DNA from: a virus
Direction: 5' to 3' (one strand)
DNA length: 24,775 nt
Virus record (IMG/VR): IMGVR_UViG_3300005782_000026
Span: 1 to 24,775 of that record
The translations under genes and the position numbers were made by a program. Shown in pieces: positions 1 through 22,297 of the stretch. The notes below the pieces were generated by a model, which had not been told where the DNA came from, ran no database searches, and saw only the letters and a list, made by a program, of their open reading frames with translations. Position 1 is the stretch's first letter. Every line of letters starts with the position of its first letter.

Positions 1-1692
1 GATATTAATATCGGAATAAACTTCAGCATCGATCCCTGTCATGTCGCCAGTTCTCACTACATCAATGATACCTGTTGCGGTCACTTGAGCAGTCGCCGAA
101 TAACCTATGTCAAGAGATACACCTTCAGCAGTCTGAGTAAATATCCCTGTGACTCCGGTTACATTTGCATCAGATTCAATAGTCCCCGTAGTAAAATCAC
201 CGTTAACATCAACACCACCAGTAAAACCAGCAAATGTTAAATTATCAGAAGTATTGATCGTTACAGTTCCCTGATCATTATCGCTTGCGATAAATGTGAT
301 TTGACCGGATGTTCCGCTGTTTGCACCCGTACTCATTGTAGAGGCAGCTACTACCGTTGCGTCGGAAGCAATCGTATTCCCTGTCAATGCGCCAACCACA
401 TCGGCATCGCCAGAAACGGTAAGATTATCACCAATCCCCACTTCTGAATTTGAATGTCCAATATCGACAGGACTGCCATCTGTACCAGTATTAATATCGA
501 TTCCGTTGGTTGTATTTGTGTTGTCCATAGTGAAAGTCGAAGTTGCATTAAAATCAAATGCAGTTCCATCGGCTGTAATTGTTCCGTCTATATCGGTATT
601 GTCCAGATTTGCTACAAGCTCAACGGCGAGATCACCAGTAACGCTTAGATTATCATTAACGGTTGTTTCTGAAGTTGTATGTCCGATAGATATTGGGCTC
701 CCACTTGTAACCGCATTTATCACAACACCATTACTTGTATTGGTATTATCAATTGTAACCGTAGTGGTGCTATTTACATCAAATGTAGTTCCGTCTGCGG
801 CGAATGTTCCATCTATATCTGTATTGTCAAGATTAGATGTCCCATCAACATACAAATCTAAAACAACGCCAAGTCCGCCGTCTGTCTGAATTGACCCAAC
901 CGTTGGACTGGTTGAATTGGTTGCATTAGAGATATCAATAGGATAGGCGGATGAATATTCTCCCTGTGCATCAGAAAGGGGGATATAAAAAGCAGTCGTA
1001 TTTACCAGAACTCTCAATGTATTATCGTACCATACATTGCCAGTCAAATCGTTTATATCGTCGAAATGGAAAATATAACCGTAATCCTCCCAATCAGCGG
1101 CAGCCGTAGTGTTACCCCAAAGCCCTGTCCGCATAAAAGCCATAGGTCTTGTGGTTGGGCTGGTAAGCGAGGAAAAATTTTCCGGCGCTTCAATCTCCAA
1201 ATCTATCGCATAATAAGCTCCGCCGCTGGGCGTTCTTGCCGGTAAATTTAACTCAGCACAAATCGCCGCAGCCATTCCGCCGCCAGCATCGCCAGTTGAT
1301 CCGGTACTATAATCGACACGTCCAACAATGCCATTGACCCACGATCCGGTTTGAACATCTGCAATAACTTTAGAATAAAAACCCTCTGAAATCGCACCTG
1401 CACCGGTTTGAGTTAAAGTAACGGTTGCTCCCACCTCAGTACCCGAAGTATTATCATTTGTTTGAACAACGGTGAACAAATCTTCGCTCGCATCATAAAG
1501 AACATAATTACCAGCAGTAGCGCCCCAGAATTTTACATCAGCACCGTTCGCACTTTCGCCGGTAACAAACCCCTGTTCCAATATAACATCGTTCCAAAAA
1601 TAAACAGGAACTTGAAATATCTGTTGTGCTGATATTGTTATGGGTAACAATACAGCTAACAACAGCATAATAAATAAACTATTTCTTCGCAT
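1..1692 (-). CDS. Repetitive fibre/appendage-like protein with signal peptide, C-terminus cut by window edge
   Basis: The frame is open from an ATG at 1692 to base 1 (564 codons, no stop), so the 3' end lies outside the window. An SD (GGAGGT) sits 7 nt before the ATG, which overlaps the end of the preceding gene by 14 nt. The first 24 residues look like a signal peptide: basic MRRN, a hydrophobic core (LFIMLLLAVLLPIT) and an ISA-QQ cleavage site. The rest is rich in T, S, G, D and N with almost no Lys or Cys, typical of beta-structured phage fibres. Two copies of a 75-residue unit starting NLDNTDIDGT lie back to back (period 225 nt, copies near 611-836 and 386-611). Position behind the capsid genes suggests a virion appendage or head fibre. 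A signal peptide is odd for a virion protein assembled in the cytoplasm; an exported adhesin-like product is the alternative. The family is not recognised with certainty. Confidence 0.8.
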   Translation of the reverse strand, partial: MRRNSLFIMLLLAVLLPITISAQQIFQVPVYFWNDVILEQGFVTGESANGADVKFWGATAGNYVLYDASEDLFTVVQTNDNTSGTEVGATVTLTQTGAGAISEGFYSKVIADVQTGSWVNGIVGRVDYSTGSTGDAGGGMAAAICAELNLPARTPSGGAYYAIDLEIEAPENFSSLTSPTTRPMAFMRTGLWGNTTAAADWEDYGYIFHFDDINDLTGNVWYDNTLRVLVNTTAFYIPLSDAQGEYSSAYPIDISNATNSTSPTVGSIQTDGGLGVVLDLYVDGTSNLDNTDIDGTFAADGTTFDVNSTTTVTIDNTNTSNGVVINAVTSGSPISIGHTTSETTVNDNLSVTGDLAVELVANLDNTDIDGTITADGTAFDFNATSTFTMDNTNTTNGIDINTGTDGSPVDIGHSNSEVGIGDNLTVSGDADVVGALTGNTIASDATVVAASTMSTGANSGTSGQITFIASDNDQGTVTINTSDNLTFAGFTGGVDVNGDFTTGTIESDANVTGVTGIFTQTAEGVSLDIGYSATAQVTATGIIDVVRTGDMTGIDAEVYSDINI

Positions 1693-1852
1693 CTTTTTTA
1701 CCTCCTTTTTTGGAAGTCTTATTCGCAGAGTCTTTGACAGGTTTTAAAATACCCATCTTCACAAGCTCAGACTCTGGCCTGGACAAATCAACAACTCCAC
1801 TTTCTATATGTTTCCTGTTGTGCTGAATATGTCCCAGTACTTGATATTTCAT
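1679..1852 (-). CDS. Small Lys-rich protein between capsid and fibre genes
   Basis: A 57-aa product beginning MKYQVLGHIQ and ending in a Lys-rich tail (KKGGKKDAKK). Start 1852 is chosen because CAGGAGGATGAACCG precedes it with GGAGG at good spacing. The frame extends upstream to a TTG at 1894 that would add MSLSRV..., resembling the capsid N-terminus (see findings). The middle (SRPESELVKMGILKPV) resembles short head-completion or accessory proteins that often follow capsid genes, but no family is recognised. It overlaps the next gene by 14 nt, suggesting translational coupling. Confidence 0.6.
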   Translation of the reverse strand: MKYQVLGHIQHNRKHIESGVVDLSRPESELVKMGILKPVKDSANKTSKKGGKKDAKK

Positions 1853-1920
1853 CGGTTCATCCTCCTGTTTGATCATAACTCTCGACAATGACAATTATAA
1901 TCCCTTAAATATTAAATCAT

Positions 1921-1954
1921 GTGGGGCTGGTACAAACCCCAAAACCAACCCCAC
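1921..1954 (-). terminator. Hairpin after the major capsid gene, possible attenuating terminator
   Basis: On the minus-strand RNA, GUGGGGUUGG pairs with CCAGCCCCAC over 10 bp with one G-U pair, enclosing a 14-nt loop. It lies 23 nt past the capsid stop. The G-U pair would be a C-A mismatch on the other strand, so the structure favours minus-strand RNA. No long U-tract follows (AUGAUUUAAUAUUU), so it may act as a weak terminator or mRNA stabiliser that keeps capsid expression above downstream genes. Confidence 0.5.
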
Positions 1955-1976
1955 AGATCCATCTTAGGGGCAAATA

Positions 1977-2939
1977 TTAAGATATAACCGTATTGAACAA
2001 ATAAGCACATTCAACATCCACAAGCTCTTCACTCTCATCGGCACGAATTTTAATGATCTGGCTTTCTCGATCATTATCATAATAGCTGAGCATTTCATGC
2101 CCTGCTCCGCCCTTTTTCGTAGTCGGAGTAAAACCCAGAGTCCGTGTCATGTTAGTAGGCTTCGGTTCAATATGAGCACCAATTACATTCTTTCCCCAAA
2201 TAGCCGCCAGAGTAATAGACTGACCTTCATCGGTTGTGATAACTAAAGGATAACCGACAAGAACCTTTTCAACACCAAAATAAGATGCGAGAAGTTCCGC
2301 AGTCATATTCTTGTTCGTGGTAGCCATTACATATTTAACACTTTCCAAAATCAATGGATGAAGTTGAAGTGCATCAAATACCTGATATCCCATGATAATC
2401 GTATTCATTTTCGTTGCGGTAGCAGCCCAAATTGACTGCCTCATGGTTTTAATATCTTCTTTGGGATTCGATGAGCTGGATGTATAAACATCCCATCGAT
2501 CATTTGAAGTAAGAGCAGAATAATTTGTTAAATATGTCCCGCTTTGAACTAAATTCGCAACCCTCTTTTCTCTTGCAACCATCCGGGCATCAACCAGAAA
2601 GCGAGATGTAATTTCTTCAACTGGCAACTCTCCCATGAATTCCTGGCGGATCGTATCATCGATACCATCCCACAAACTCCGATCTGTCAACTTGAATGTA
2701 CCATCGGTATCGAGATCGAATTCAATCTTGTTGCCCATTGTTGAAGGTGCTCGTTTATCTTCATAATTTCTGAAATTTTCTTTTGTAAATTTGCGATATC
2801 TCCCTGACCGTTTGCCGCCGGTATTCAAAAATGGCAATACTTGATTTGCAATAAAAGTATCCGGCCTGTTTGCATAAGCAACCATTAGCGTAGTCAGGTA
2901 GGGATCGACTTGTCTCATTTTCACACGTGATAAAGACAT
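1977..2939 (-). CDS. Major capsid protein (HK97-fold type)
   Basis: A 320-aa protein with an ATG start and GGAGGATT SD. It follows the order protease/scaffold, decoration protein, capsid, as in Mu-like and many siphophage head modules. It opens with an extended arm (VDPYLTTLMVAYANRPDTFI), has a central helical region around residues 105-135 (spine-helix-like) and a C-terminal beta-rich stretch with the ELLASYFGVEKVLVGYPLV segment, where capsids of the E/gpT type carry an 'AA-x-fgv-x-kVlVg' pattern. It has no Cys-rich or enzymatic motif. The HK97 fold is inferred from length, pattern and position. It is well separated from the next gene by a hairpin, consistent with high expression. Confidence 0.82.
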   Translation of the reverse strand: MSLSRVKMRQVDPYLTTLMVAYANRPDTFIANQVLPFLNTGGKRSGRYRKFTKENFRNYEDKRAPSTMGNKIEFDLDTDGTFKLTDRSLWDGIDDTIRQEFMGELPVEEITSRFLVDARMVAREKRVANLVQSGTYLTNYSALTSNDRWDVYTSSSSNPKEDIKTMRQSIWAATATKMNTIIMGYQVFDALQLHPLILESVKYVMATTNKNMTAELLASYFGVEKVLVGYPLVITTDEGQSITLAAIWGKNVIGAHIEPKPTNMTRTLGFTPTTKKGGAGHEMLSYYDNDRESQIIKIRADESEELVDVECAYLFNTVIS

Positions 2940-2955
2940 AATAATCCTCCTGACC

Positions 2956-3342
2956 CTATGCGGTCAAAGTGGGTGACATAGTAAGTAAGCACCCTATAAT
3001 ATCATTGTCATCGCCATCCTCTAAAGCGATACCGATAACAAACTGATTTGCTGTGTCATCTGTGATTATATAACCATCAGTGTCAACTACAAGCTGATCC
3101 ATTTCTGAAACAGCACCACCGAGTTTTACTCTGGTAAATCCAAAACCACGAACTCGCCCAACATCAGGATCAACATTGCCCTTAGGCTTATCCTGAAGAA
3201 TACCAATAATGGCATTCCCTTTTGTATGGGTAGTAGTCAAAACACCAGAGCTAACCTTCACACCCAGAAACTGGCTACCTGATAAATCACTCGTCACGGC
3301 AAAAGAGGCATCCTGTCCATAAGTAGATTTTGGTACTCCCAT
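2956..3342 (-). CDS. Capsid decoration/cement protein (DUF2190-like)
   Basis: A 128-aa small, Gly/Val/Thr-rich beta protein encoded directly upstream of the capsid gene, 16 nt apart. The pattern 'VSSGVLTTTHTKGNAIIGIL...GRVRGFGFTRVKLGGAVSEMDQ' fits the DUF2190/gpD-like capsid cement family: a parent-value-plus-trimer head-stabilising protein. The SD GGGAGG precedes the ATG. Role in the cell is binding to the expanded head. Identification is by pattern and gene order. Confidence 0.68.
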   Translation of the reverse strand: MGVPKSTYGQDASFAVTSDLSGSQFLGVKVSSGVLTTTHTKGNAIIGILQDKPKGNVDPDVGRVRGFGFTRVKLGGAVSEMDQLVVDTDGYIITDDTANQFVIGIALEDGDDNDIIGCLLTMSPTLTA

Positions 3343-3376
3343 GAGTAGCCTCCCTTTAATTAATAATTAAACCAGA

Positions 3377-5062
3377 CTATTCTTCGCCCATTCTTGATTC
3401 CTGATAGGCTTTGAGTAGTTCTGGATTTTCTTTGTCAACGAGAGCCTTCGCATCATCAAAACTGATTGCCTTTTCCGTAGCTTTCTCATTAATAGCATCG
3501 TTATAAATATTCGAAGGATCTTCGCCCTCTCCACCTGTTCCACCCGAACCTTGTTCCTCAAAACCGATCACTGGTTTGGCATCTTTCGCCCATTTCTCAA
3601 AACCATCCCGATCACGTAGCACCATACCGATAGTACTTTCTCTTTGTGCGGGAAGTATTTTACCTTCTTTTATAAGATTATCAACCAGATATTCGGCTTT
3701 TTCTTTTGCACGATCTTTTTCAATTTCGAGAAGTCTTTTCTCATTTTTCCCCATATTCTCGAATTCCTCATCGGTCAAAGTATGAGTTCCATCCGATCCA
3801 TCTTTGAGCTTTTTATTATCTGTTTCAAGAGACTTGATCTTCTCGGTAGCCTCTTTCAATTTGGTATCGGATTCCTCTTTACTCTTTTTGACCGTACTAT
3901 GCTCATCCGATAAAGTCTGGACAGCTTTTTCGATATCATCATCCTCTTTAAGTTTGAGGATTTCTCTCAATTTTTTCTCATCCATGATCTGTACCTCCAT
4001 TTCTGAATAATCACCGATCCCGGCTTTTCGAGCCGCAGTTATCAAAACTTTTTTCGCTTTTGATTTCTCTTCCGGCGTTAATTTGGTTTGATTCAAACTT
4101 GCAAGCGCATTCCTTAAATGAGGTAAATCCACTTTCTCGCTCGCGTCTTTATATGGTAAGAATCTCAATGTACGAGGCTTGGTTCCCCCCCCTTCATCTT
4201 TCTCGCCCCCTGACTTGATAAACGCAAAACTTGAATCGGGTAAATCATTAATAAATGCAGTAGTCCATTTAACAAAATCTTTAGCCTGTCCCGGCCCCGG
4301 CCTTTCAACTCTTCTCATTTGACCCCCGCATTTATCGCATTTTATATCATTACAATGCTCTTTAGAAGTAACCTTCCATCCGCATTTTATACATTCACAT
4401 TCGAAAGTCTGTTCCTGAAATATGACCCGGCTATCCTCAGTGAGAGCAAGAGCTAATTGGTTCTTTTTTAAAAAGGGGTAATTAGTCAACGCAAACCCCA
4501 AAAATGTAAATCCCCTCATCTTACCATTCTCATCTTTCCAATCCTCCTTAAACTCTGGGGAGATCCATAAAAATTCTTTTTTCTTTATATACTCTTTTGC
4601 TTTATCAGTCCATTCCACAATAGCTTTTACAACACCATCCTTTTTAAATACCTTTTTCAATATACCACTGTTTTTATTTTGTTCAGGATCAGTATTGGCG
4701 CCGGTTGGGTGATCATAATTACCAACAAGCACATTGTTACCTTTATCATCTTTTCGAGCCCCAATCCCATTATTGAAATTATTAATACCATTATCAATAT
4801 CTTTTTCCGTGATCTTAAATTTGCCGTATCTATAATGATCAAAACTCCCCGAATAAATAAAAGTAATTTCACTAAGATCAACTTCACTTAAAGCAATAAT
4901 CATTCTTGGCTCATTCATTTTCTCTTTTCGCCTCCATTGACTATAACATACAGCCGACCTTTGTTCAATGTCGGCATATTCAGATTTCATCAAATCATTA
5001 CTCATGCACCGATTGATAAAATCGCTTTCTTTCTCATTTGGGTTTGGTTTGGGTAGCGGCAT
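3377..5062 (-). CDS. Mu gpI-like prohead protease fused to zinc ribbon, DUF6582-like and scaffold regions
   Basis: A 561-aa multidomain protein. Residues about 1-45 hold a motif seen in phage head proteins (PKPNPNEKESDFINRCM... QRSAVCYSQW). Residues about 60-215 resemble the Mu I protease family: H118 in the DHP motif and S168 in WISPEF are the expected catalytic residues. Residues 224-245 form a CxxC-(14)-CxxC zinc ribbon. Residues about 298-350 (FLPYKDASEKVDLPHLRNAL) resemble DUF6582. From about 360 to 465 there is a charged coiled coil typical of assembly scaffolds. The product probably scaffolds the prohead and then cleaves it. ATG at 5062 has GGAG 6 nt upstream; a GTG at 5065 is the alternative and directly follows the portal stop. 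The protease, ribbon and DUF6582 arrangement in one chain is unusual. Confidence 0.82.
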   Translation of the reverse strand: MPLPKPNPNEKESDFINRCMSNDLMKSEYADIEQRSAVCYSQWRRKEKMNEPRMIIALSEVDLSEITFIYSGSFDHYRYGKFKITEKDIDNGINNFNNGIGARKDDKGNNVLVGNYDHPTGANTDPEQNKNSGILKKVFKKDGVVKAIVEWTDKAKEYIKKKEFLWISPEFKEDWKDENGKMRGFTFLGFALTNYPFLKKNQLALALTEDSRVIFQEQTFECECIKCGWKVTSKEHCNDIKCDKCGGQMRRVERPGPGQAKDFVKWTTAFINDLPDSSFAFIKSGGEKDEGGGTKPRTLRFLPYKDASEKVDLPHLRNALASLNQTKLTPEEKSKAKKVLITAARKAGIGDYSEMEVQIMDEKKLREILKLKEDDDIEKAVQTLSDEHSTVKKSKEESDTKLKEATEKIKSLETDNKKLKDGSDGTHTLTDEEFENMGKNEKRLLEIEKDRAKEKAEYLVDNLIKEGKILPAQRESTIGMVLRDRDGFEKWAKDAKPVIGFEEQGSGGTGGEGEDPSNIYNDAINEKATEKAISFDDAKALVDKENPELLKAYQESRMGEE

Positions 5063-5065
5063 CAC

Positions 5066-7153
5066 TCACTCCACAAAAATATTAATACCTCGACACGCAT
5101 CCCCACCCTCACAATTCCGGTAAGGACCCCCTGCGACCTTTGACCAAAGCGGATCATCAGTAGTAAATTCATTACCATCAATAGGACGACAAGCTCTGCA
5201 TATCTTATCATCCATAATCTCAGATCGGATAACTTTCTTAACGTCCTGCTTCATAGCCTCCGCAGATCGACCTATGCCAAACATCCCCCTTGCCTTCTCG
5301 ATCATCTCCCTTTTAAAAACTGTATTCTTTAAAGCCTCCATACTATCAGTTAATAAATCACTATTCACAAACCCCAGACTTTTCTGTCTCATCAATTCCT
5401 TACGCCATTCGTTATGTAAAATAGTAGTCAACGAAGCAACCGATAACTCAGCCCAGGGTACAGCGGCCTTTTTACTCTCCTGCTCATCCTCAATAATCGG
5501 CACGCCCGGCTCCTGCAATTTCGTAATCTTTTTCAATTCACTCTTGACAGTATCACGGCCATATTGATAAATGTCTTTCAATTTGCCTGAAATCTCCCTT
5601 GCCATCCGAGCCTTGCCAGATATCTTAATCTCGATAGTCTTTTTGGTAAAAGCTTTTAAAGAGAGCCTCCTATTCAACAGCCTGATTCCCTCCCTGGCCA
5701 ATTCCTTAGTCATAAAATTTCTATGCTTCTCAACAACCTCGATCAACTCTGCCTCAAAATCACGCATACTATTATCAATCTCTTTTAACCCGATCTTATT
5801 TTCTAATGATGTGAGAGTCCGCCAGTATCGTTCAGACATCTTCTTATAACTATGTTCATGAGTATTAACTTCCGGCTTAGTCTCTTTTGGCTTTTCTTTC
5901 TTTTCCTCAACCTCCGGTAAATCAAATTCCTCTCGTATATGAACCTCATCCTCCAGCCTCGGACATACAAATCCACTGTCAGCCAGATTCTTTAAATAGA
6001 TACTCACCTTCTCATAATCAATGTTAGCAATCTTTGAAAATTTTAATTTCGGGTATTGATCGACATTCGGGAAATTAAAACTCACAAGCTCTTTGATCAG
6101 TAAACGGCCTTCCATACCCTCATTAAAAATATCCTCGATATAATTCGCCGTAGATTGTAAAGACAAGAAAAAATTCTCTTTTAATTCATGGATAGATGCA
6201 CGTGAACCAAAATCAGTTTTACCTACATCCATAAATTGAGCCAAAATATTTGAACTGATTTCTGTATTATGGAATTTAATCGATGGTATAATATCGGTTA
6301 ATGATGATACTTTTAAATCAGCAAATTCAACATCCCAGCCATGAGGCTTAATAATATATGATTTTTCATGTGATCTTAATGTCTCACCAACTTTTTCACA
6401 AGCTTCAATATCCTCTGTTTTCGCATCCTCCGGGGGTGTAAATATAGGAATCCCCAGACCCTGCCTTTCATGTCTCATTGCATCTATACGGATCAATGTA
6501 TCTTTTATTTTCCAGTTCCGGTAAGCATTCCTGAGAATCGAAGTACCCGTCCAATTCCAGCCTTCTTGATTATTCGTAAACAATACAAGAAATTTATTAG
6601 GGATTGTAAATGTACCATAACTACCATCAGGCCTTGTAGCGAACTGTTCGACTTCTTTCAGAGTCCCATCATCATTCTGATTCCATCTCCTTATCGTTTT
6701 AGGTAGTCTCGGTGATATGTTTTTAATATAAATCTGACTGTCAACAACCTCATAAACTTTCTCGAATACATAAGCCCCAAACTGCAAATACTTGAGGATA
6801 TGTCTCAACAAATAATTCCAAGTAAAATTCCTATTCATGAATAAATTAACATTGATAAACTCTGCAATCTTCAAATCGATATTGTCCTGAGACGCTGGCT
6901 CTATCCGAGATGTAGAAGATAATATAGGCAACTCAACGGCCAGTAATGAAGCATTAACCTGAGCATCAGTACGTCTCATTTTATCAGCATTCTCAACAGC
7001 TTTGATATCTTTCCATTCAGCATTGAATTCCTCGCCTTGAATAAATCCACCGAAATTGGCCGTCCCGACCTCGCCTTTCGCTTTAGATGATCTTCTCTGT
7101 TCAGCGAGATTTCGTTGGACGAGCTTATCGATATAATTATCAAATATCTTCAA
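5066..7153 (-). CDS. Portal protein (Mu gp29/DUF935-like) fused to MuF-like minor head domain
   Basis: A 695-aa protein. The N-terminal two-thirds match the DUF935 portal layout: DAQVNASLLAVELPILSS near residue 62, FGAYVFEKVYEV near 130, and a C-terminal wing with ISSNILAQFMDVGKTDFGSRA near 310. After a Glu/Lys/Pro linker (about 425-445) comes a helical region ending in a MuF-type domain with C652, C655, C681 and C687 (ICRACRPIDG... CEGGDACRG), a probable metal-binding head-completion motif. The portal forms the dodecameric DNA channel; MuF domains act in head morphogenesis. Start is TTG at 7153 with AGGAGG 5-6 nt upstream, overlapping the terminase stop as TTGA. Confidence 0.88.
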   Translation of the reverse strand: MKIFDNYIDKLVQRNLAEQRRSSKAKGEVGTANFGGFIQGEEFNAEWKDIKAVENADKMRRTDAQVNASLLAVELPILSSTSRIEPASQDNIDLKIAEFINVNLFMNRNFTWNYLLRHILKYLQFGAYVFEKVYEVVDSQIYIKNISPRLPKTIRRWNQNDDGTLKEVEQFATRPDGSYGTFTIPNKFLVLFTNNQEGWNWTGTSILRNAYRNWKIKDTLIRIDAMRHERQGLGIPIFTPPEDAKTEDIEACEKVGETLRSHEKSYIIKPHGWDVEFADLKVSSLTDIIPSIKFHNTEISSNILAQFMDVGKTDFGSRASIHELKENFFLSLQSTANYIEDIFNEGMEGRLLIKELVSFNFPNVDQYPKLKFSKIANIDYEKVSIYLKNLADSGFVCPRLEDEVHIREEFDLPEVEEKKEKPKETKPEVNTHEHSYKKMSERYWRTLTSLENKIGLKEIDNSMRDFEAELIEVVEKHRNFMTKELAREGIRLLNRRLSLKAFTKKTIEIKISGKARMAREISGKLKDIYQYGRDTVKSELKKITKLQEPGVPIIEDEQESKKAAVPWAELSVASLTTILHNEWRKELMRQKSLGFVNSDLLTDSMEALKNTVFKREMIEKARGMFGIGRSAEAMKQDVKKVIRSEIMDDKICRACRPIDGNEFTTDDPLWSKVAGGPYRNCEGGDACRGINIFVE

Positions 7154-8475
7154 AAATCCTCCTGCATCAATCCAGCGGTTTCAAATGACTCGCTCCGCTT
7201 TCTATGCCTCTCAATATCAACCGTTTTTCTCATAGTGATATCGCCTACTGGCTTAAAGACTCTTGCGACTCCCCTTTCAAAAGCTTCCACTGCATGATCG
7301 TCTGCGCTCTTCAAATTCTCCCACGTAAGAGACTCCATCTCAGCAATCAGATTCGGGCAATTCTCTGATATCTCGATTTTTTCATCATCCAATTTCTGGT
7401 AAGCAAGCGGGTACCTGACTTCAAATTGAACCGGATTCTGTGATAAGATTATGCCATATTCGGACTTGAAATAATCAGCCGGGGTCGTCCCATCTTTTTC
7501 ATGCTGAAAAGCTCTGGGACAGGCAATAGTCTTTTTTATCAGACCCTCTATTCCCCACTTAGCACGGGTAGCCTTTACGGCCTGTCCGGCCTCATCCGGC
7601 TTACATCCTTTCTTGTAAAACTCATCGATGATCCTTAATATTCCATCTGATCCCATCCATCCCCACAACCAGACCATAGCGTTGGCATCAGAAAGACCGT
7701 AATCTTGAAACTCCCAATAAGTCCCAGGACGGCAAAGTTCCGTCTGTACTTGTTGTAAATTATCTTTTGAATACGAATGGATATGGACTCTTCTATTAAA
7801 GTTTGAGTAGAGCAATCCTTCATATCCTTCATGCTTCCCATTTAAAAACCTCGCCACCATTTGAGGCGGCCAGTTCTTTTCTTTTTCTTCATAATAATTC
7901 TCAGGCAGATTCGCTTTATTCCATCGAGGCAGGGGCTGAAAATATCTGTAAATAGAATTGCTCTGCGGTGAAATAAACTTTTGCCAGCACCAATTATGAC
8001 CCGCTGGATTAGCAGTCCCGAATCCTTTTAGCTCAATATTAGTTAATTTCAACCGACCCTCTAAAGTGTTCCAAACCTCAGCACTCCACATTTCCTCCAT
8101 CTGTTCAATCCAAAACCATCCCAGATTATAATTATTTAACTGCAAAACTCTACCAACTCGATCCATTCCACGCCAATAAATAGTAGACCCATTAGGTAAC
8201 TTATGTACGTGTTCACTCGATCTATAATACTGCTCCCAGGAAGGTAAAAAATCGTGGAACTGTTTCAGAGTCGTATCTCTATTATCACCCCAAGTCTTTC
8301 GCAAAACCATCCCTACATTTTTAGAAATCTTACTCAATCGATTCGCAAGTATTATAGCAGCTAATGTTTTGCCGTTTCCATACTCCCCAAAGAAGCCCCC
8401 GTACTTCCACGGGTCTACTGCAAAAGCATATTGCTCTTCGCATAAATCAATTTTTATTTCTTGCGGAACATCCAA
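7150..8475 (-). CDS. terL: Terminase large subunit
   Basis: A 441-aa ATPase/nuclease that packages DNA into the prohead. Walker A is GEYGNGKT (residues 30-37). The Walker B region is NLGWFWIEQMEE (117-128), with E124 a likely catalytic Glu. A coupling-type TANP motif lies at 154-157. The nuclease half has FQDYG (D258), IIDEF (D284) and a C-terminal DDHAVEAFERG (D392/D393), the expected metal-binding acids. The start must be TTG at 8475: an in-frame TAA lies two codons upstream and no other start precedes Walker A. It overlaps the small terminase by 29 nt, suggesting translational coupling. Confidence 0.95.
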   Translation of the reverse strand: MDVPQEIKIDLCEEQYAFAVDPWKYGGFFGEYGNGKTLAAIILANRLSKISKNVGMVLRKTWGDNRDTTLKQFHDFLPSWEQYYRSSEHVHKLPNGSTIYWRGMDRVGRVLQLNNYNLGWFWIEQMEEMWSAEVWNTLEGRLKLTNIELKGFGTANPAGHNWCWQKFISPQSNSIYRYFQPLPRWNKANLPENYYEEKEKNWPPQMVARFLNGKHEGYEGLLYSNFNRRVHIHSYSKDNLQQVQTELCRPGTYWEFQDYGLSDANAMVWLWGWMGSDGILRIIDEFYKKGCKPDEAGQAVKATRAKWGIEGLIKKTIACPRAFQHEKDGTTPADYFKSEYGIILSQNPVQFEVRYPLAYQKLDDEKIEISENCPNLIAEMESLTWENLKSADDHAVEAFERGVARVFKPVGDITMRKTVDIERHRKRSESFETAGLMQEDF

Positions 8476-8872
8476 TAATTACTACCCCATCTTCAAATTT
8501 ATGCTCAATTTCCTGCTTATCTGTCCATCCAAAATTCTTTAATGCAAAGATAGCACCCGCCGCATATCGACCATTTAGATTGTTCTCATAATGGCTTGCA
8601 ATAATCATTTTCGATCTTTTTATAGTGTAAGAAAATTCTTTCTTCTTTTCATAATCATAAAAAGATTGTCTTGACTCAAAACCACAGTAAAGACACAGCC
8701 CAGTAATAGTCATAGATTCATCTTTATTAAGCTGATTAAAATATTGCTCTATTTTTTTAATTAATTTTTCGGGGGTTTTATATTTAGGCGGCCTACCAGT
8801 AGAAGTTATACCCAATTTAAATAAATTTTTCTTTTTTTTCTTAGGTTTGCTTTTTTCCGAAGAAGCAGACAT
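8447..8872 (-). CDS. terS: Terminase small subunit (gp3-like DNA-packaging protein)
   Basis: A 141-aa DNA-recognition subunit of the packaging motor. A Lys-rich N-terminus (residues 8-15) is followed by a region typical of the gp3-type small terminases: TITGLCLYCGFESRQSFYDY, then a helical ring-forming segment and AAGAIFALKNFGWTDK. SD AAGGTG lies 4 nt before the ATG. It is the first gene after the strong promoter at 8905-8933 and overlaps the large subunit, as expected at the head of a packaging operon. Confidence 0.88.
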   Translation of the reverse strand: MSASSEKSKPKKKKKNLFKLGITSTGRPPKYKTPEKLIKKIEQYFNQLNKDESMTITGLCLYCGFESRQSFYDYEKKKEFSYTIKRSKMIIASHYENNLNGRYAAGAIFALKNFGWTDKQEIEHKFEDGVVIIGCSARNKN

Positions 8873-8904
8873 AATTCACCTTACATGAAACCATTCTACT
8901 CCAC

Positions 8905-8933
8905 AATATAGTAATTAAGTTTTGATATGTCAA
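8905..8933 (-). promoter_or_regulatory. Strong sigma-70-type promoter for the packaging/head operon
   Basis: On the minus strand, TTGACA (8933-8928), a 17-nt spacer and TATATT (8910-8905). This is a perfect -35 with a 5/6 -10 at ideal spacing, 33 nt before the small-terminase ATG. It divides the accessory/early region from the late genes. A weak hairpin (TTTGG/CCAAA, 8953-8968) lies just upstream and could end transcripts entering from the early side. Confidence 0.75.
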
Positions 8934-8977
8934 GAATTTTTTAAAATCAGTTTTTGGTATATTCCAAACTTTCTACC

Positions 8978-9199
8978 TCATTTTACATTCCCTTCCTTGA
9001 TTTCATTTCTATAAAACTTGATCCATGATTGTAATTGATGTTTATCCCCACCTACCAGATTGGTAGACTTAAATCTCTTCATAATTTCGTTTGTTTTTAA
9101 TCCCTCTCTTATTACATCAACAAAAAATCTTTTCCTTTGCTCTTTTTGAGCTTTTTTCAGATGATCAATTCTTTTGAATCTTCTTCCCCTTGCAATCAT
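8978..9199 (-). CDS. Small basic protein, unknown
   Basis: A 73-aa product rich in Lys and Arg. Residues about 22-45 (FFVDVIREGLKTNEIMKRF) could be a helix-turn-helix, and the C-terminal half (HQLQSWIKFYRNEI) is helical. It may bind DNA, but no family is recognised. Its ATG overlaps the stop of the upstream gene as ATGA (9196-9199). It is the last gene before the late promoter. Confidence 0.6.
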   Translation of the reverse strand: MIARGRRFKRIDHLKKAQKEQRKRFFVDVIREGLKTNEIMKRFKSTNLVGGDKHQLQSWIKFYRNEIKEGNVK

Positions 9200-9405
9200 T
9201 TTAAAAACTCTTTTGCTCTTACCAAATGAGCTACAGCATCTTCATCTTGATTGTTCCAAATATAGCTTATTGCTTTACCAATCTCATTTTTTGCACCTTC
9301 CATTTTTCTATCAATCGTACCAAGCCATTCTTCAACATTTGATATGGCCAAATAAGCAAGGAGATTTTTATCAATTTGCTTTTTTGTATATCGTATCATT
9401 TCCAT
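9196..9405 (-). CDS. Small helical protein, unknown
   Basis: A 69-aa all-helical product (QIDKNLLAYLAISNVEEWLG; EIGKAISYIWNNQDEDAVAHLVRAKEFLK). It has no Cys or membrane segment. It is coupled by ATGA overlap to the gene downstream and lies 3 nt after the exported-protein gene upstream. No family is recognised. Confidence 0.6.
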   Translation of the reverse strand: MEMIRYTKKQIDKNLLAYLAISNVEEWLGTIDRKMEGAKNEIGKAISYIWNNQDEDAVAHLVRAKEFLK

Positions 9406-9408
9406 AAT

Positions 9409-10194
9409 TTATTCCTTGTCGATTAATATGTTTACTGCTTTTGGGATTGCCTCTATCCTTACTGTTTTTTCTCCTGGGATAGCATATTTAAACTCTGTAT
9501 TTCCCAAAGCAGTTATGATTAATTCCTTGTCCCCACCACCCGAATTAAAATCAATCGATTCTGGATTAAACGTTTGCAATGTATCACATTGTCCCCCGAA
9601 ATAAACTTGCAAGCGACCAGTGGAACTAACCGTAATTCGATATGGGCTTGTGATAGTATTCAACAACATAATACTTATACTTGATCCTTGTGCTAACCAT
9701 CCCTGCCCATCTATTCCACTATGCCAACCGTCCACACTATTTCTAATATCCATAATGCGATATTCGGCGAACAGTAAACCTTCAGTAATAATGGTTGTAT
9801 CCGAGGGCGGTAAAGATGGAGAAACATCGCCTTCTCCATAAACTTTAACCCAAGCTGTATCGCTTGGTGCAGATTGAGCAGTTCTGTTTTTATACCTGGC
9901 CGTAACATAAAAACGTGTATCAAGTAATGCTTTTTCAATATAGGTCGAATCCTCTAAAGCAATCAATATCAGCCCAGTTGGTTGCGTCCATTTGTATAGA
10001 ATATATTCTACTTCTGATTTTATATTTTCTGTGTCAATGATGGTCAATATGTAATCTTTCCCATTTTCAATATTGTAGCTTGTTTCCTCTGCCTTTACTC
10101 GTCTGAAAAGAAGTAGCAACATAACAAAAAGAATAGCAATTATTAATAAAACATTAAACAAATTCTTTGCAGAAACTCTTTTAAAATTATTCAT
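9409..10194 (-). CDS. Membrane-anchored/exported protein with Fn3-like region, paralogue of 12986-13735
   Basis: A 261-aa product. Residues about 14-33 form one strong hydrophobic segment (LFNVLLIIAILFVMLLLLF) after a basic start, so it is an N-terminal anchor or uncleaved signal. The remainder should be outside the membrane. Residues about 35-120 look like a fibronectin-III/Ig-type fold ending in 'SDTAWVKVYG', followed by a Pro/Ser linker and a second beta domain with 'RLQVYFGGQCD' and 'ITALGNTEFKY'. The same order and motifs recur in the protein at 12986-13735. SD AGGAGGT is in place; the start overlaps the RHH gene by 8 nt. Function is unknown; a surface protein altering the infected cell (for example exclusion of other phages) is inference. 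Confidence 0.72.
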   Translation of the reverse strand: MNNFKRVSAKNLFNVLLIIAILFVMLLLLFRRVKAEETSYNIENGKDYILTIIDTENIKSEVEYILYKWTQPTGLILIALEDSTYIEKALLDTRFYVTARYKNRTAQSAPSDTAWVKVYGEGDVSPSLPPSDTTIITEGLLFAEYRIMDIRNSVDGWHSGIDGQGWLAQGSSISIMLLNTITSPYRITVSSTGRLQVYFGGQCDTLQTFNPESIDFNSGGGDKELIITALGNTEFKYAIPGEKTVRIEAIPKAVNILIDKE

Positions 10195-10417
10195 TTTCTA
10201 CCTCCTCATGTTCTGGATTAAGGGGCATTTGTTCTATATCATCACCCCATGTATTTATACATCTTGTTTGTTCATTTATTTTATCTCTACGCATTTGAAA
10301 ATCTAATGCACATTCTAAATATGACGTAAACGTCTGCTCTGTTTGTAGGCAATAATCCCTAATTAATTTAATTTTCTGTTGAGGCAATCTAACGTCTATT
10401 CGTTTTCGTGTGCACAT
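10187..10417 (-). CDS. Ribbon-helix-helix-like small protein
   Basis: A 76-aa product starting MCTRKRIDVRLPQQ. A short beta strand (RIDVRL) followed by two helices (QQKIKLIRDYCLQ and FTSYLECALDFQM) is the ribbon-helix-helix layout of Arc/MetJ-type regulators, with an acidic C-terminal tail (EHEEVENE). It may regulate the exported protein it overlaps. Start choice is uncertain: a TTG at 10429 adds four residues, and AAGG sits too close to that TTG and rather far from the ATG. A near-repeat TGTACACA/TGTGCACA covers the start and could be an operator. Confidence 0.6.
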   Translation of the reverse strand: MCTRKRIDVRLPQQKIKLIRDYCLQTEQTFTSYLECALDFQMRRDKINEQTRCINTWGDDIEQMPLNPEHEEVENE

Positions 10418-10498
10418 TTGTGTGTACAAGCCTTATATTTAATAATTATAAACATCTGTTATTATTGATCTGATTTTCTTAAACATGTTATCATCTTG

Positions 10499-10984
10499 TT
10501 ATCTTGATTTTTTGCCTCTCAACTTATTCTGTAATTTTTCTATTTTTAATTCAATATCCTGTACTTCGTTGTCATGTCTTAATTTACTGTGCTTTTTTCG
10601 ATTTTCAATATTTTCTGCTATTAATTCGCTTATTTTCTTGTTCCACATCCATTCCATATATTTTTTAATTTCCGCGCCATATTTGCTAAGACATTCTGGA
10701 CATACTTCAATCTTTTTGTGAATCTCAATATGCTGAAGTTTTATACTGTCTTTAATATACCCATATTGCATAGGCATCCATTGACCCATATTGTCAAAAT
10801 ATGAACTTTCAACTTCTCTGCGTTCTTGGATTGTTTTCCCACAAATATAGCACTCTGTTTCGTACAAAACCGTTTCAGGCATTTGATACACTTGAGCTAT
10901 ACTCGGCAAAAAACAAGATAACAAAATGATGAACACGGATGCCCACACCCACCGGCCAATGCTACTACGTTTCAAATTCTTCAC
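10499..10984 (-). CDS. Exported protein with CxxC...CxxC metal site and C-terminal coiled coil
   Basis: A 161-aa product with a GTG start and AAAGGA SD. Residues 1-30 form a signal peptide: basic KNLKRSSIGRW, a hydrophobic core, then SIA-QV; an LLSC stretch could alternatively be a poor lipobox. C45/C48 (CYIC) and C95/C98 (CPEC) would bind zinc or form disulphides. Residues about 105-155 are a charged coiled coil (ELIAENIENRKKHSKL, ELKIEKLQNKL). A zinc-ribbon pair on an exported protein is uncommon. It lies next to the other exported protein of this region. Function unknown. Confidence 0.68.
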   Translation of the reverse strand: MKNLKRSSIGRWVWASVFIILLSCFLPSIAQVYQMPETVLYETECYICGKTIQERREVESSYFDNMGQWMPMQYGYIKDSIKLQHIEIHKKIEVCPECLSKYGAEIKKYMEWMWNKKISELIAENIENRKKHSKLRHDNEVQDIELKIEKLQNKLRGKKSR

Positions 10985-11027
10985 AATCTTATTCCTTTCG
11001 TTTATTCGTTAAAATCTATCTTCTCCG

Positions 11028-11048
11028 CCTGCACCGGTTATTATAACC
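11028..11048. repeat. 21-bp repeat, copy 1 (non-coding)
   Basis: These 21 bases recur exactly at 11667-11687, and the match extends to 24 bases with one mismatch. The core GGTTATAATAACC is a palindrome on the minus strand. Copy 1 lies just past the stop of the Cys-rich gene. Confidence 0.8.
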
Positions 11049-11050
11049 CG

Positions 11051-11332
11051 TTATATGCTTTCGTGATTAACGCAACCATAATTTTCGCCTGTTATTAATT
11101 CTGCTCGATATTCACTACCATCGACAACGCATGCTCCTGTTATTTCTGGTCGTTGATAGAATAGCAATTTAGGGCTTTTACATCGTCTTACCTTGTGCCC
11201 AAATAAAGAGACTGCTTCATCTTCTGTCTCACATTGTTCGTAATCATCGCCTGGTTTGTATGGGAAAATAATTCTGTCATACTCATCTTGTTCATTTAGT
11301 AACCAATGTTTGCAGGTTTTGCAAGTTTTCAT
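11051..11332 (-). CDS. Small Cys-rich, probably zinc-binding phage protein
   Basis: A 93-aa product starting MKTCKTCKHWL. Start 11332 has AAGGAG 7 nt upstream; an in-frame ATG at 11374 has no such site and lies inside the attC-like hairpin. Five conserved-looking Cys (CKTC, C near 35, RRCKSPK, CVVDGSE, YGCVNH) fit the short zinc-binding proteins common in phage accessory regions. Function unknown. It is the last member of the cassette-like run, and its stop sits in GCATATAAC, the complement of the GTTATATGC at the start of its own segment. Confidence 0.65.
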   Translation of the reverse strand: MKTCKTCKHWLLNEQDEYDRIIFPYKPGDDYEQCETEDEAVSLFGHKVRRCKSPKLLFYQRPEITGACVVDGSEYRAELITGENYGCVNHESI

Positions 11333-11354
11333 TTTTTTCTCCTTATGTAATTCC

Positions 11355-11414
11355 GCATATAACAAAGTATTCAAGCCGATGCAAAAAGCGCACGGCTTAA
11401 TACAACCGTTAGCC
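11355..11414 (-). other. attC-like recombination site (element C)
   Basis: Sixty bases between the Lar-like and Cys-rich genes. In the gene direction it reads GGCTAAC ... GTTATATGC, close to the RYYYAAC...GTTRRRY ends of integron attC sites. The inner stem pairs GTATT with AATAC, AAGCCG with CGGCTT and TGC with GCA. Two bases stay unpaired on one side (C11372 and A11379), like attC extrahelical bases, with an AAAAA loop. The stop codon TAA of the upstream gene lies inside GGCTAAC, as is common in gene cassettes. There is no U-tract, so it is not an intrinsic terminator. Confidence 0.6.
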
Positions 11415-11741
11415 TGGCCTTGTATTCCATAATTTTATTAATTCTTCATCTGTTTTCCATGTACCCAATAAAGAACATCCACAATTACATTTAATTACAG
11501 GGTCGGTTGAACCTTGTCCAGATTGTTCTCTTGATATACTTAATTTATTATTATCACAAAATGGACAGGCTAACAATTGCGTCAACTCTGACGCCTTTGT
11601 CTGTGCGTTATTTTCGTCTTGTGCCATTTCTAAAGTCCTTTTAATTATTAAATTCCTGATACACCACCTGCACCGGTTATTATAACCGTCTTCTCCCAAC
11701 ATAACATCTAATATCTTTTTTTTAAATTTAGAATCTTTCAC
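11409..11741 (-). CDS. Lar-like restriction-alleviation zinc protein
   Basis: A 110-aa product from a GTG with GGAGG upstream. The C-terminal 55 residues match the Lar family layout: LLACPFCDNNKL, then VIKCNCG, then the closing LWNTRPG. Lar proteins of Rac-type prophages relieve type I restriction, so an anti-restriction role is plausible. The N-terminal 38 residues (with GYNNRCRWC) are not part of that family. An internal ATG at about 11627 with AAGGA upstream would give a 72-aa protein of normal Lar length. The repeat at 11667-11687 lies in the N-terminal part. Its stop codon lies within the attC-like element downstream. Confidence 0.68.
   Translation of the reverse strand: MKDSKFKKKILDVMLGEDGYNNRCRWCIRNLIIKRTLEMAQDENNAQTKASELTQLLACPFCDNNKLSISREQSGQGSTDPVIKCNCGCSLLGTWKTDEELIKLWNTRPG
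11667..11687. repeat. 21-bp repeat, copy 2 (coding)
   Basis: An exact copy of 11028-11048, here encoding GYNNRCR within the N-terminal extension of the Lar-like protein. The two copies are 639 bp apart in the same orientation and bracket one cassette-like unit. Confidence 0.8.
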
Positions 11742-11812
11742 AACCCACCTCCAACTTTTAATTTCCGTTCACCAGTTACGGCCATTCTCAACCTCACATC
11801 GTCCCGCCAATG

Positions 11813-11909
11813 GCTCCGCTGACCAGCCCAGAAGCCAGCCAACAAACCCCTGCAGCGTAATGTCGGGCATTCAGCCCGCCATACGCTGAGGGCAGCTATT
11901 ATGCGGAGC
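11813..11909 (-). other. GC-rich attC-like hairpin (element D)
   Basis: The 11742-11929 interval has no gene but is markedly more GC-rich than its surroundings. It folds as a long imperfect hairpin: GCTCCGC (11813) with GCGGAGC (11903), CCCT with AGGG, CAGCGTA with TACGCTG, and CGGGC with GCCCG around an ATTCA loop. G11852 is a single unpaired base between CCCT and CAGCGTA, again an attC-like feature. The conserved GTT/AAC ends are poor, so this would be a decayed or divergent member of the set. Confidence 0.42.
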
Positions 11910-11929
11910 TACTTTATTCATTAACAAAT

Positions 11930-12085
11930 CTACCGCCCTACCCATTTTTTAAGATGGTAAAATATTGCTGACCCTATCCAATTTCTTGCCTCTTCCATTT
12001 CTTCTAAATCCATTTTAGACCATAAAAATAAATCAATAATTCCTCCGACAATTAATATCATTATTATAGCTATTTCCCAATTCAT
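11930..12085 (-). CDS. 51-aa single-pass membrane peptide
   Basis: The product starts MNWEIAIIMILIVGGIIDLF and ends YHLKKWVGR. AAGGAGGATGGGAT gives a strong SD before the ATG at 12085. Residues 4-21 form one transmembrane helix, followed by an acidic then basic helix. It is shorter than 60 codons but well supported by its start site and its place between two attC-like elements. Function unknown. Confidence 0.62.
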   Translation of the reverse strand: MNWEIAIIMILIVGGIIDLFLWSKMDLEEMEEARNWIGSAIFYHLKKWVGR

Positions 12086-12153
12086 ATCCCATCCTCCTTA
12101 AATTTAAAATTTCATTCACAATCTAAATCCCTTCACACAGACCAACCGCTCCA

Positions 12154-12272
12154 CATAACGTCCGGCGTCACACCACCCACATAACCCACACGTCCACACG
12201 GAATCAAAAAAGTCAACACCAAAATCCACAACACCACATCCCTTTTGACTTTTTCGATCCGGTGACGTTAGC
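12154..12272 (-). other. Long attC-like recombination site (element A)
   Basis: About 119 bases at the 3' end of the DUF2695-like gene. Outer arms: TAACGTC/GACGTTA with CGG/CCG, a 2-nt bulge between. Inner arms: 12199-12216 against 12245-12261, 16 pairs around one unpaired A and one mismatch. In the gene direction it opens with GCTAAC and closes with GTTATG, the attC order. The coding region runs into the element and stops inside it, giving the gene an atypical Gly/Cys/Trp tail. Confidence 0.52.
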
Positions 12273-12521
12273 AATATTAAATAATATTTCACAGTCACAG
12301 TACCCCCCATTTTCCTCAAAGTATTGCAACGTTTTTTTAGTATTCACTTTGGGGAAATGTTTTTTCAAAATTGCAGTGGCAAATGATTTGTCTGTTCTGC
12401 CCTTACAATTCCAGATCGTTTCGCCCTTCTCGTTTTTCCTAAAATTACACCCTTCCTCCCCTTCGAGTAATTGACAAAATTTGTCGAAGTTAGGGTGTTT
12501 AGTATTCATAATTTCCTTCAT
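12213..12521 (-). CDS. DUF2695-like small protein
   Basis: A 102-aa product. 'FDKFCQLLEGEEGCNFRKNE... TLQYFEENGGYCDCEILFNI' follows the DUF2695 pattern, whose hallmark is the C-terminal GGyCDCEVl-N motif. The role of the family is unknown; it occurs in bacterial accessory regions. The last 15 residues (after NVTGSKK) are encoded by the attC-like element and are probably not part of the domain. AAAGGA precedes the first ATG; a second ATG four codons later also has AAGGA. Confidence 0.65.
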   Translation of the reverse strand: MKEIMNTKHPNFDKFCQLLEGEEGCNFRKNEKGETIWNCKGRTDKSFATAILKKHFPKVNTKKTLQYFEENGGYCDCEILFNIANVTGSKKSKGMWCCGFWC

Positions 12522-12600
12522 CGCTTTAATCCTTTCTATTTCGTTAATTTCTCACGGCGGCAAAACACCCGCTTCCAAAAGCCCACACAGCCACCCTGAG

Positions 12601-12660
12601 TAACCAAGTATCGCACGGGATGCAAAAAGATGCACCCGTGAATACCACCGTTCTTGGCTG
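12601..12660 (-). other. attC-like recombination site (element B)
   Basis: Sixty bases between the 82-aa gene and the DUF2695-like gene. Pairs: CCAAG/CTTGG, GTAT/ATAC, CACGGG/CCCGTG and TGCA/TGCA around an A-rich loop, with A12620 unpaired. It aligns base for base with element C in the unpaired and loop positions (TAAC.AAGTAT, GATGCAAAAAG, AATAC.ACCGTT). The stem bases differ but still pair. The 12522-12666 interval is otherwise non-coding. Confidence 0.58.
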
Positions 12661-12666
12661 GCGTAT

Positions 12667-12915
12667 TCATTTGGGTGAATCTTCATCCCTAACCCCAATA
12701 ACAATACGTCCTTTATCCGTTACATAGTATATAAAACCTTCAATCCATGACAAATCATGTTTAGTCATCATTTCATGCTTTACTAAATTCTCACAAGCGT
12801 CAAAATCATCTGATCCCTCTCCAGTATTATAATGATTCCTGGTTTCAGTATCGCTTCGATCTAAACCGAGAGAATGCTTAATTATGCTTACTTCGTGATC
12901 ATTCGGAACGTACAT
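12667..12915 (-). CDS. Hypothetical 82-aa protein, first cassette-like gene
   Basis: A neutral to acidic soluble protein (MYVPNDHEVSIIKHSLG... FIYYVTDKGRIVIGVRDED). AAAGGAGGTAGGGATT gives a strong SD. 'HNYN/HYNTGEGSDDFDACENLVKHEMM' may form a helical domain with two His and a Cys, but no family is recognised. It is followed directly by attC-like element B. Confidence 0.6.
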   Translation of the reverse strand: MYVPNDHEVSIIKHSLGLDRSDTETRNHYNTGEGSDDFDACENLVKHEMMTKHDLSWIEGFIYYVTDKGRIVIGVRDEDSPK

Positions 12916-20624: not shown

Positions 20625-20960
20625 TTACGGTATATCTGCTACTGCTTTCCTAATTCCTACTATGCCAAGTACACCGCATAAGCTGTATATGATTTCAATA
20701 TCAATTGGCAATGTCATACCCAGACCATTTACAATCGATATCACAGCAACCAAACCGGCGGCGACATAAGTTTTCCATCCTTTGTTTCCTGATATTTTCT
20801 GAATAGCGGTACGGAAGAATCCCAAGCCCAGACCAGCCAAAACACCGAATACAGCTTCAGGAATCATCTTACCTGTCAAGACAGGAATAAGTACCAGACC
20901 CAAAAACAAAACAGCGATGATATAGGTTTTCTTTCCTTTTAAAAATTCGATGATATTCAT
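20625..20960 (-). CDS. Holin-like membrane protein, copy A
   Basis: A 111-aa product starting MNIIEFLKGKKTYIIAVLFL. It has three or four hydrophobic segments (about residues 12-30, 34-53, 70-90 and 92-105) separated by a conserved loop 'AIQKISGNKGWK'. It is clearly homologous to copy B at 21941-22297 (shared FLxGKKxYxIAxLF, LVLIPVLTG, AIQKxSGNKGW, LGIVGxRKAV). Placement after the endolysin suggests a holin-type role. Start 20960 has AAGGAG, and the longer frame to 21053 is an artefact of the adjoining gene remnant. Confidence 0.7.
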   Translation of the reverse strand: MNIIEFLKGKKTYIIAVLFLGLVLIPVLTGKMIPEAVFGVLAGLGLGFFRTAIQKISGNKGWKTYVAAGLVAVISIVNGLGMTLPIDIEIIYSLCGVLGIVGIRKAVADIP

Positions 20961-20961
20961 C

Positions 20962-21111
20962 TCAATTCTCCTTTCTGAAATGATTAATAATTTCACCGAT
21001 CCACTCGATGATAGTTTTAAAAATGATTTCCCATGATACTTTCCCCTCGCCATTAACTAATTTTTTTATACCATGACCAGCACCTACACCAGTAAAAGCA
21101 TATCCAATCCC
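20962..21111 (-). pseudogene. 3' remnant of the 22300-22707 gene
   Basis: The frame from about 21111 to a TGA at 20962 reads IGYAFTGVGAGHGIKKLVNG... and ends NHFRKEN. The intact gene reads IGYAFAGVGAAHGTKKLING... and ends NYFRKEN. Homology stops abruptly just after the shared AAAGCATATCCAATCCC, and no start codon or SD precedes it. It therefore is the tail of a duplicated gene, kept together with the holin-like copy A whose SD lies in its last codons. Confidence 0.8.
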
Positions 21112-21940: not shown

Positions 21941-22297
21941 TTATTTCATGTACGGCACTAAATCGCCTACCGCTTTTCTGGCTCCTACAATGCCGAGAAC
22001 GACACTCCCGCCGTATATCATTTCCAATATTTGAGGGGAAATAACTAAACCTACGCTGGTTGATACGGTTATGCCGACAACAACGACAACTGCTGCATAA
22101 CTTCGCCAGCCTTTATTGCCGGAGAGCTTTTGAATAGCTAACCGAATAAATCCGAACCCAATCGCACCAGCAACCGCAAATACTTTTTCTGGAACGATCT
22201 CGCCGGTCAAAACAGGAATTAGAACAAGTACCGCGAACAACAACGCAATGAGATAAGCTTTCTTTCCATTTAAAAATTCTTTGATTTTTTCAAACAT
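21941..22297 (-). CDS. Holin-like membrane protein, copy B
   Basis: A 118-aa product starting MFEKIKEFLNGKKAYLIALL. Hydrophobic segments lie at about residues 14-33, 38-55, 68-88 and 92-108, with the loop AIQKLSGNKGWRSY and a C-terminal ARKAVGDLVPYMK. AAGGAG is in place, formed by the last codons of the upstream gene. It is homologous to copy A but not to a named holin family. Its place in the lysis cassette makes holin the best guess. Confidence 0.7.
   Translation of the reverse strand: MFEKIKEFLNGKKAYLIALLFAVLVLIPVLTGEIVPEKVFAVAGAIGFGFIRLAIQKLSGNKGWRSYAAVVVVVGITVSTSVGLVISPQILEMIYGGSVVLGIVGARKAVGDLVPYMK

Follow-up and report, generated by a model that had tools for sequence, protein, structure and literature searches.

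Integrase-less attC clusters in phages and the present locus

Current work treats integrons as reservoirs of genes against phages. Clusters of attC sites lacking an integrase (CALINs) are also carried by phages: Qi et al. described 17 of them in 2023, along with phage attC sites that are functional (PMC9892861). In the CALINs of the virulent Tetrasphaera phage TJE1, Polaribacter phage P12002L and Pseudoalteromonas phage PH101, attC sites lie between small accessory genes and no integron integrase is found (PMC9892861). The TJE1 attC sites were shown experimentally to recombine with attI1, and divergent attC directions were noted in P12002L (PMC9892861).

The locus described here likewise has attC sites between small accessory genes and no integron integrase. 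The window, i.e. the whole stretch of DNA that was analysed, is a linear virus record 24.8 kb long and comes from a tailed phage. Nearly all of its genes are on the minus strand, in the order major head protein, head maturation protease, portal, large terminase, accessory region, replication/recombination genes (helicase loader, O-like initiator and exonuclease) and endolysin. The accessory region, with the terminase/head module on one side and the replication module on the other, consists of an array of short genes with hairpins at their junctions, which we consider to be, quite probably, a small CALIN. As both CALINs and functional attC sites had already been reported from phages in 2023, the array is of a known kind; the remark in the first-pass annotation that integron cassettes in phages are rarely described is true but, with 17 clusters published, not new. 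Less usual in the window are the reversal of the entire set of sites, the Lar-like anti-restriction unit and the existence of a near-identical sister phage with a different border gene.

By the IntegronFinder 2 rule, a CALIN holds at least two nearby attC sites without an integron integrase (PMC9024848). The window contains two model-supported attC sites, and the tyrosine recombinase family PF00589 is absent from the whole record, in line with the annotators' statement that no integrase is seen, the contig being a fragment. A complete integron would also have an intI gene and an attI site, and neither was found near the window sites, which in this differ from the sites of class 1 integrons. 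No bacterial copy of the cassettes was found in the collections searched either. These negative results speak against the CALIN reading.

The four hairpins and their relation to attC

When the junction regions were folded as single-stranded DNA and compared with dinucleotide shuffles, the four imperfect hairpins that had been described between the short minus-strand genes proved to exist and to fold better than the shuffled sequences, with minus-strand z values of −2.1 for 11350-11420 (site 4), −3.2 for 12590-12670 (site 1), −3.2 for 12145-12270 (site 2) and −3.9 for 11808-11914 (site 3). We have also scanned the whole window without any model, taking all AAC...GTT pairs 40-125 bases apart and retaining only those hairpins that do not branch and whose unpaired flanks are short. 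The most stable hairpins of the 24.8 kb were, in this order, 12602-12652 (site 1), 11361-11410 (site 4) and 12183-12269 (site 2), which all fall at gene junctions inside a single stretch of 1.3 kb. An R″ box ending in AAC and an R′ box starting with GTT are indeed present in these three sites, as had been claimed, and are missing in site 3.

A covariance model (R1) was built from 17 plasmid-borne attC sites, all taken from class 1 integron cassette arrays (aadA, qacH, dfr and others). The variable loop of long attC sites was shortened for the alignment, and the model has 60 positions with the standard attC pairing. With all filters off, R1 returned exactly two significant matches in the window, both on the plus strand, namely 11357-11414 (site 4, 35.5 bits, E 3.9e-7) and 12598-12655 (site 1, 22.2 bits, E 0.0011); no other score exceeded 8.6 bits. 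Site 4 comprises an R″ box ATATAAC, extrahelical C and A bases six positions apart, a loop and an R′ box CGTTAGCC, and the boxes of site 1 are GAGTAAC (R″) and CGTTCTT (R′); the two sites share 76% identity over 29 nt. They resemble class 1 attC sites in their R″-L″-L′-R′ architecture, the extrahelical bases on one arm and the 60-nt size, but their stems are AT-richer and their R′ boxes (GTTAGCC, GTTCTTG) are less canonical.

These scores can be judged against several controls. In phage TJE1, R1 recovered three sites with 34.5, 26.2 and 22.2 bits, and plasmid attC sites held out of the training set scored 22.6-40.5 bits. The best score outside attC sites was 15.6 bits in the control phages TJE1 and P12002L (98 kb) and 14.4 bits in another 171 kb of loci, among them several attC-bearing plasmids. 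The only window matches of this independent class 1 model are thus sites 4 and 1, which score as high as the active sites of TJE1, and these two are integron attC sites.

Short 5′-arm patterns by themselves do arise by chance in phage coding DNA, and one could ask whether a GC-richer, hairpin-prone stretch has simply yielded attC look-alikes, the more so as the E-values behind the 22-bit site are rough. However, 19 phage loci carrying the 5′-arm pattern TATAACAAAG...CAAGCCGA, all of them coding DNA, gave no R1 match at E ≤ 1 in 155 kb, so that none of the look-alikes scores with the full model, and the two window matches, which are similar in sequence, share a strand and are separated by 1.24 kb. 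Such an origin is therefore highly improbable. Exact and degenerate attC patterns, run against viral and genome collections, likewise returned only coding-sequence coincidences besides the same phage.

Each hairpin also follows directly on a gene stop codon and is more stable than its shuffled versions, as would be true of terminators or 3′-end stabilizers of a moron operon with only a resemblance to attC. Against such RNA elements, which we hold to be improbable, stand the lack of a U-tract, the 0 family matches of an Rfam gathering scan of the window, and the specific attC model matches, whose R boxes and extrahelical bases lie on the opposite strand. A terminator, a riboswitch or a chance hairpin was rejected as the main explanation.

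The other two sites are less clear-cut. Site 2 (12183-12269, plus strand), with a long stem, ranked third in the model-free scan and was not recovered by R1. Site 3 (11837-11905, plus strand) has an attC-like stem with a degenerate R′ box, in which CTATTATG replaces GTT..., and its R1 score of 6.3 bits is not significant. Both results count against reading the array as a CALIN. Site 3 is also the only clearly GC-rich site (0.58), so that the GC-rich junctions of the first-pass annotation hold there and fail for site 4 (0.41) and site 1 (0.48). Judged by sequence and geometry, the attC-type designation is firm for sites 4 and 1 and likely for site 2, with site 3 appearing as a degenerate relative that does not deserve full status.

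Reversed sites and tightly packed units

In real attC sites, the extrahelical bases lie on one arm, with the T-N6-G arrangement on the folded bottom strand (PMC3053210). In our training set, the unpaired stem bases fall mainly on the top-strand 5′ arm, and the window sites show the same concentration when read on the plus strand, the numbers on the 5′ and 3′ arms being 2/0 in site 4 and 3/1 in each of sites 1, 2 and 3. The one-sided unpaired bases that had been described are therefore real. In site 4, the extrahelical C and A, six bases apart, correspond exactly to T-N6-G on the opposite strand; in site 1, the second base is present together with a 2x1 internal loop. From the strand of the model matches and the bulge arm, it follows that all four sites run on the plus strand, opposite to the genes. 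This reverses the earlier claim that they run in the gene direction, which relied on the AAC...GTT ends; that pattern is its own reverse complement and cannot decide the direction of a site.

In a canonical cassette, the ORF and its attC point the same way, whereas in the window the attC sites are on the plus strand and all neighbouring genes on the minus strand. That all six ORFs oppose the attC direction is unusual for cassettes and speaks against the CALIN interpretation. It also sets the window apart from TJE1, in which the attC sites run with the genes. In P12002L (L029), R1 gave a weak plus-strand match of 14.3 bits at 30005-30059, between two minus-strand methyltransferase genes, and this phage may have the same reversed layout as the window.

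The units themselves are single genes, all on the minus strand. The 82-aa gene at 12667-12915 belongs to PHROG 13561 (E 2e-13), of unknown function. The ORF at 12213-12521 matches DUF2695 (PF10905, 34.3 bits against a cutoff of 25), and the gene at 11409-11741 encodes a Lar-like restriction alleviation protein (PF14354, 31.7 bits against a cutoff of 28.6; PHROG 599, E 1e-5); both family assignments of the first-pass annotation are hence correct. Between them, a 51-aa single-TM peptide is encoded at 11930-12085, with no family match for this ORF. The array is completed by a 93-aa cysteine-rich gene (11051-11332; no family or phage match) and a 161-aa accessory gene (10499-10984). A few bases short of site 2, at about 12276, the DUF2695 domain comes to an end, and the final 20 codons of its ORF run through the hairpin; the TAA stop of the Lar-like gene lies inside an R box of site 4, and the 93-aa gene stops within a GTTATATGC-like box. 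The two upstream stop codons said to fall inside the elements are thus those of the DUF2695 ORF in site 2 and of the Lar-like gene in site 4. With domain ends and stop codons abutting the R boxes, the packing is tight and fits cassette units.

Similar loci are known among phage morons and anti-restriction genes of the Lar/Ral type, in which small counter-defence genes and genes of unknown function are placed between modules. Ordinary morons, however, are not separated by attC sites, and the window units are. BLAST of 10.8-13.4 kb against phage records gave no match. No DUF2695 cassette was found in the phages, plasmids and viral contigs searched, no copy of the 93-aa gene in phages, and the Lar-like gene occurred in viral contigs only in the same phage; nor was any array gene found beside attC elsewhere in the collections searched.

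A 24-bp near-perfect direct repeat, CACCTGCACCGGTTATTATAACC on the plus strand, occurs at 11025-11048 and 11664-11687, 639 bp apart. It encodes GYNNRCR, with one copy inside the Lar-like ORF and the other just behind the 93-aa gene. An attC remnant was considered, but a gene fragment present in both places is the better reading; the repeat looks like a recombination scar or a gene remnant.

If the array is a CALIN, a working model can be proposed. Single-gene units, including DUF2695, Lar-like anti-restriction and short unknown proteins, would carry attC on the plus strand, and the integron integrase (IntI), of which there is none in the contig, would come from the host and act in trans. Folding of the recombinogenic strand by host IntI, and its cleavage at the G|TT of the R′ box, would lead to the insertion or removal of units, and phage transcripts on the minus strand would presumably express them against the usual attC-to-gene direction. 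We infer that the units were acquired through IntI; their exchange by the same enzyme is plausible, and the sites are possibly still usable by it. Only if IntI acts on these sites would the array behave like a cassette array.

Linkage to the phage and exchange at the left border

A separate contig (L003) is identical to window 1238-12144 and ends next to site 2. It contains site 4 with 100% identity, and it links sites 3 and 4 to the terminase, portal and capsid genes. The linkage of the attC sites to phage genes can be taken as shown.

A sister phage from another data set (L004) is 99.95% identical over window 1-10515 and then carries a different gene that ends at the same spot. The switch is abrupt and coincides with the 161-aa gene's stop codon, the two gene ends reading ...AAAAAATCTGAATAACAAG and ...AAAAAATCAAGATAACAAG; the new gene is seen over 85 bases only (L004 1-85). 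The junction between shared backbone and exchanged gene, 10505-10515 in the alignment, reads CTTGTTAT on the plus strand and contains a GTTAT box on that strand, where an exchange in the plus orientation would fall. As judged from this alignment, position 10515 of the window is an accessory-gene exchange site. No recognizable attC adjoins it, however, and since so little of the new gene is available, ordinary recombination is an equally possible cause.

A more distant relative (L066) shares the head module and has 58% TerL identity; over the 21 kb searched, it lacks attC sites as well as equivalents of the array genes. Together with the other border gene of L004, this indicates that the array is variable rather than conserved. 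The outcome that the first-pass annotation would have taken as a refutation, no model matches along with a conserved order in all relatives, is thus the opposite of what was obtained.

These data also bear on whether the sites still work. They could stem from a piece of a host integron that was once taken up and has been decaying since, with turnover due to ordinary phage recombination. Such fossil sites would still be attC, as in a CALIN, and would differ only in having lost their activity. We give this a little less than an even chance. The degeneration of sites 2 and 3, the former divergent and the latter without its box, agrees with decay, and the sole polymorphism seen, at 10515, lies away from any model-supported attC. 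On the other hand, site 4 is fully canonical down to its T-N6-G extrahelical bases, and attC sites of lytic phages can be active (PMC9892861).

At the other extreme, the array might swap host-takeover and counter-defence genes through its hosts' integron integrase, with antisense cassettes selected as phage transcription opposes the array, and the L004 gene would then be a recent swap; we regard this as rather unlikely. For a CALIN of the kind preferred here, attC-flanked phage genes, including the Lar-like one, suggest a reverse traffic in which phages may acquire cassettes and pass them on, and the reversed attC sites together with the L004 border gene offer a compact test case.

Several repeats are also found around the left border. 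A 23-nt inverted repeat (91% complementary) occupies 10490-10512 and 10908-10930, with one arm covering the polymorphic junction at the 3′ border of the exchanged 161-aa gene and the other inside that gene. Direct GTTAT repeats are present near 10460-10515 and might be read as attI-like. Elsewhere in the window, two similar small membrane proteins of the FLKGKKTYIIAVLFLGLVLIPVLTG type are encoded at 20625-21053 and 21941-22297, close to the endolysin, and probably represent a holin-like duplication.
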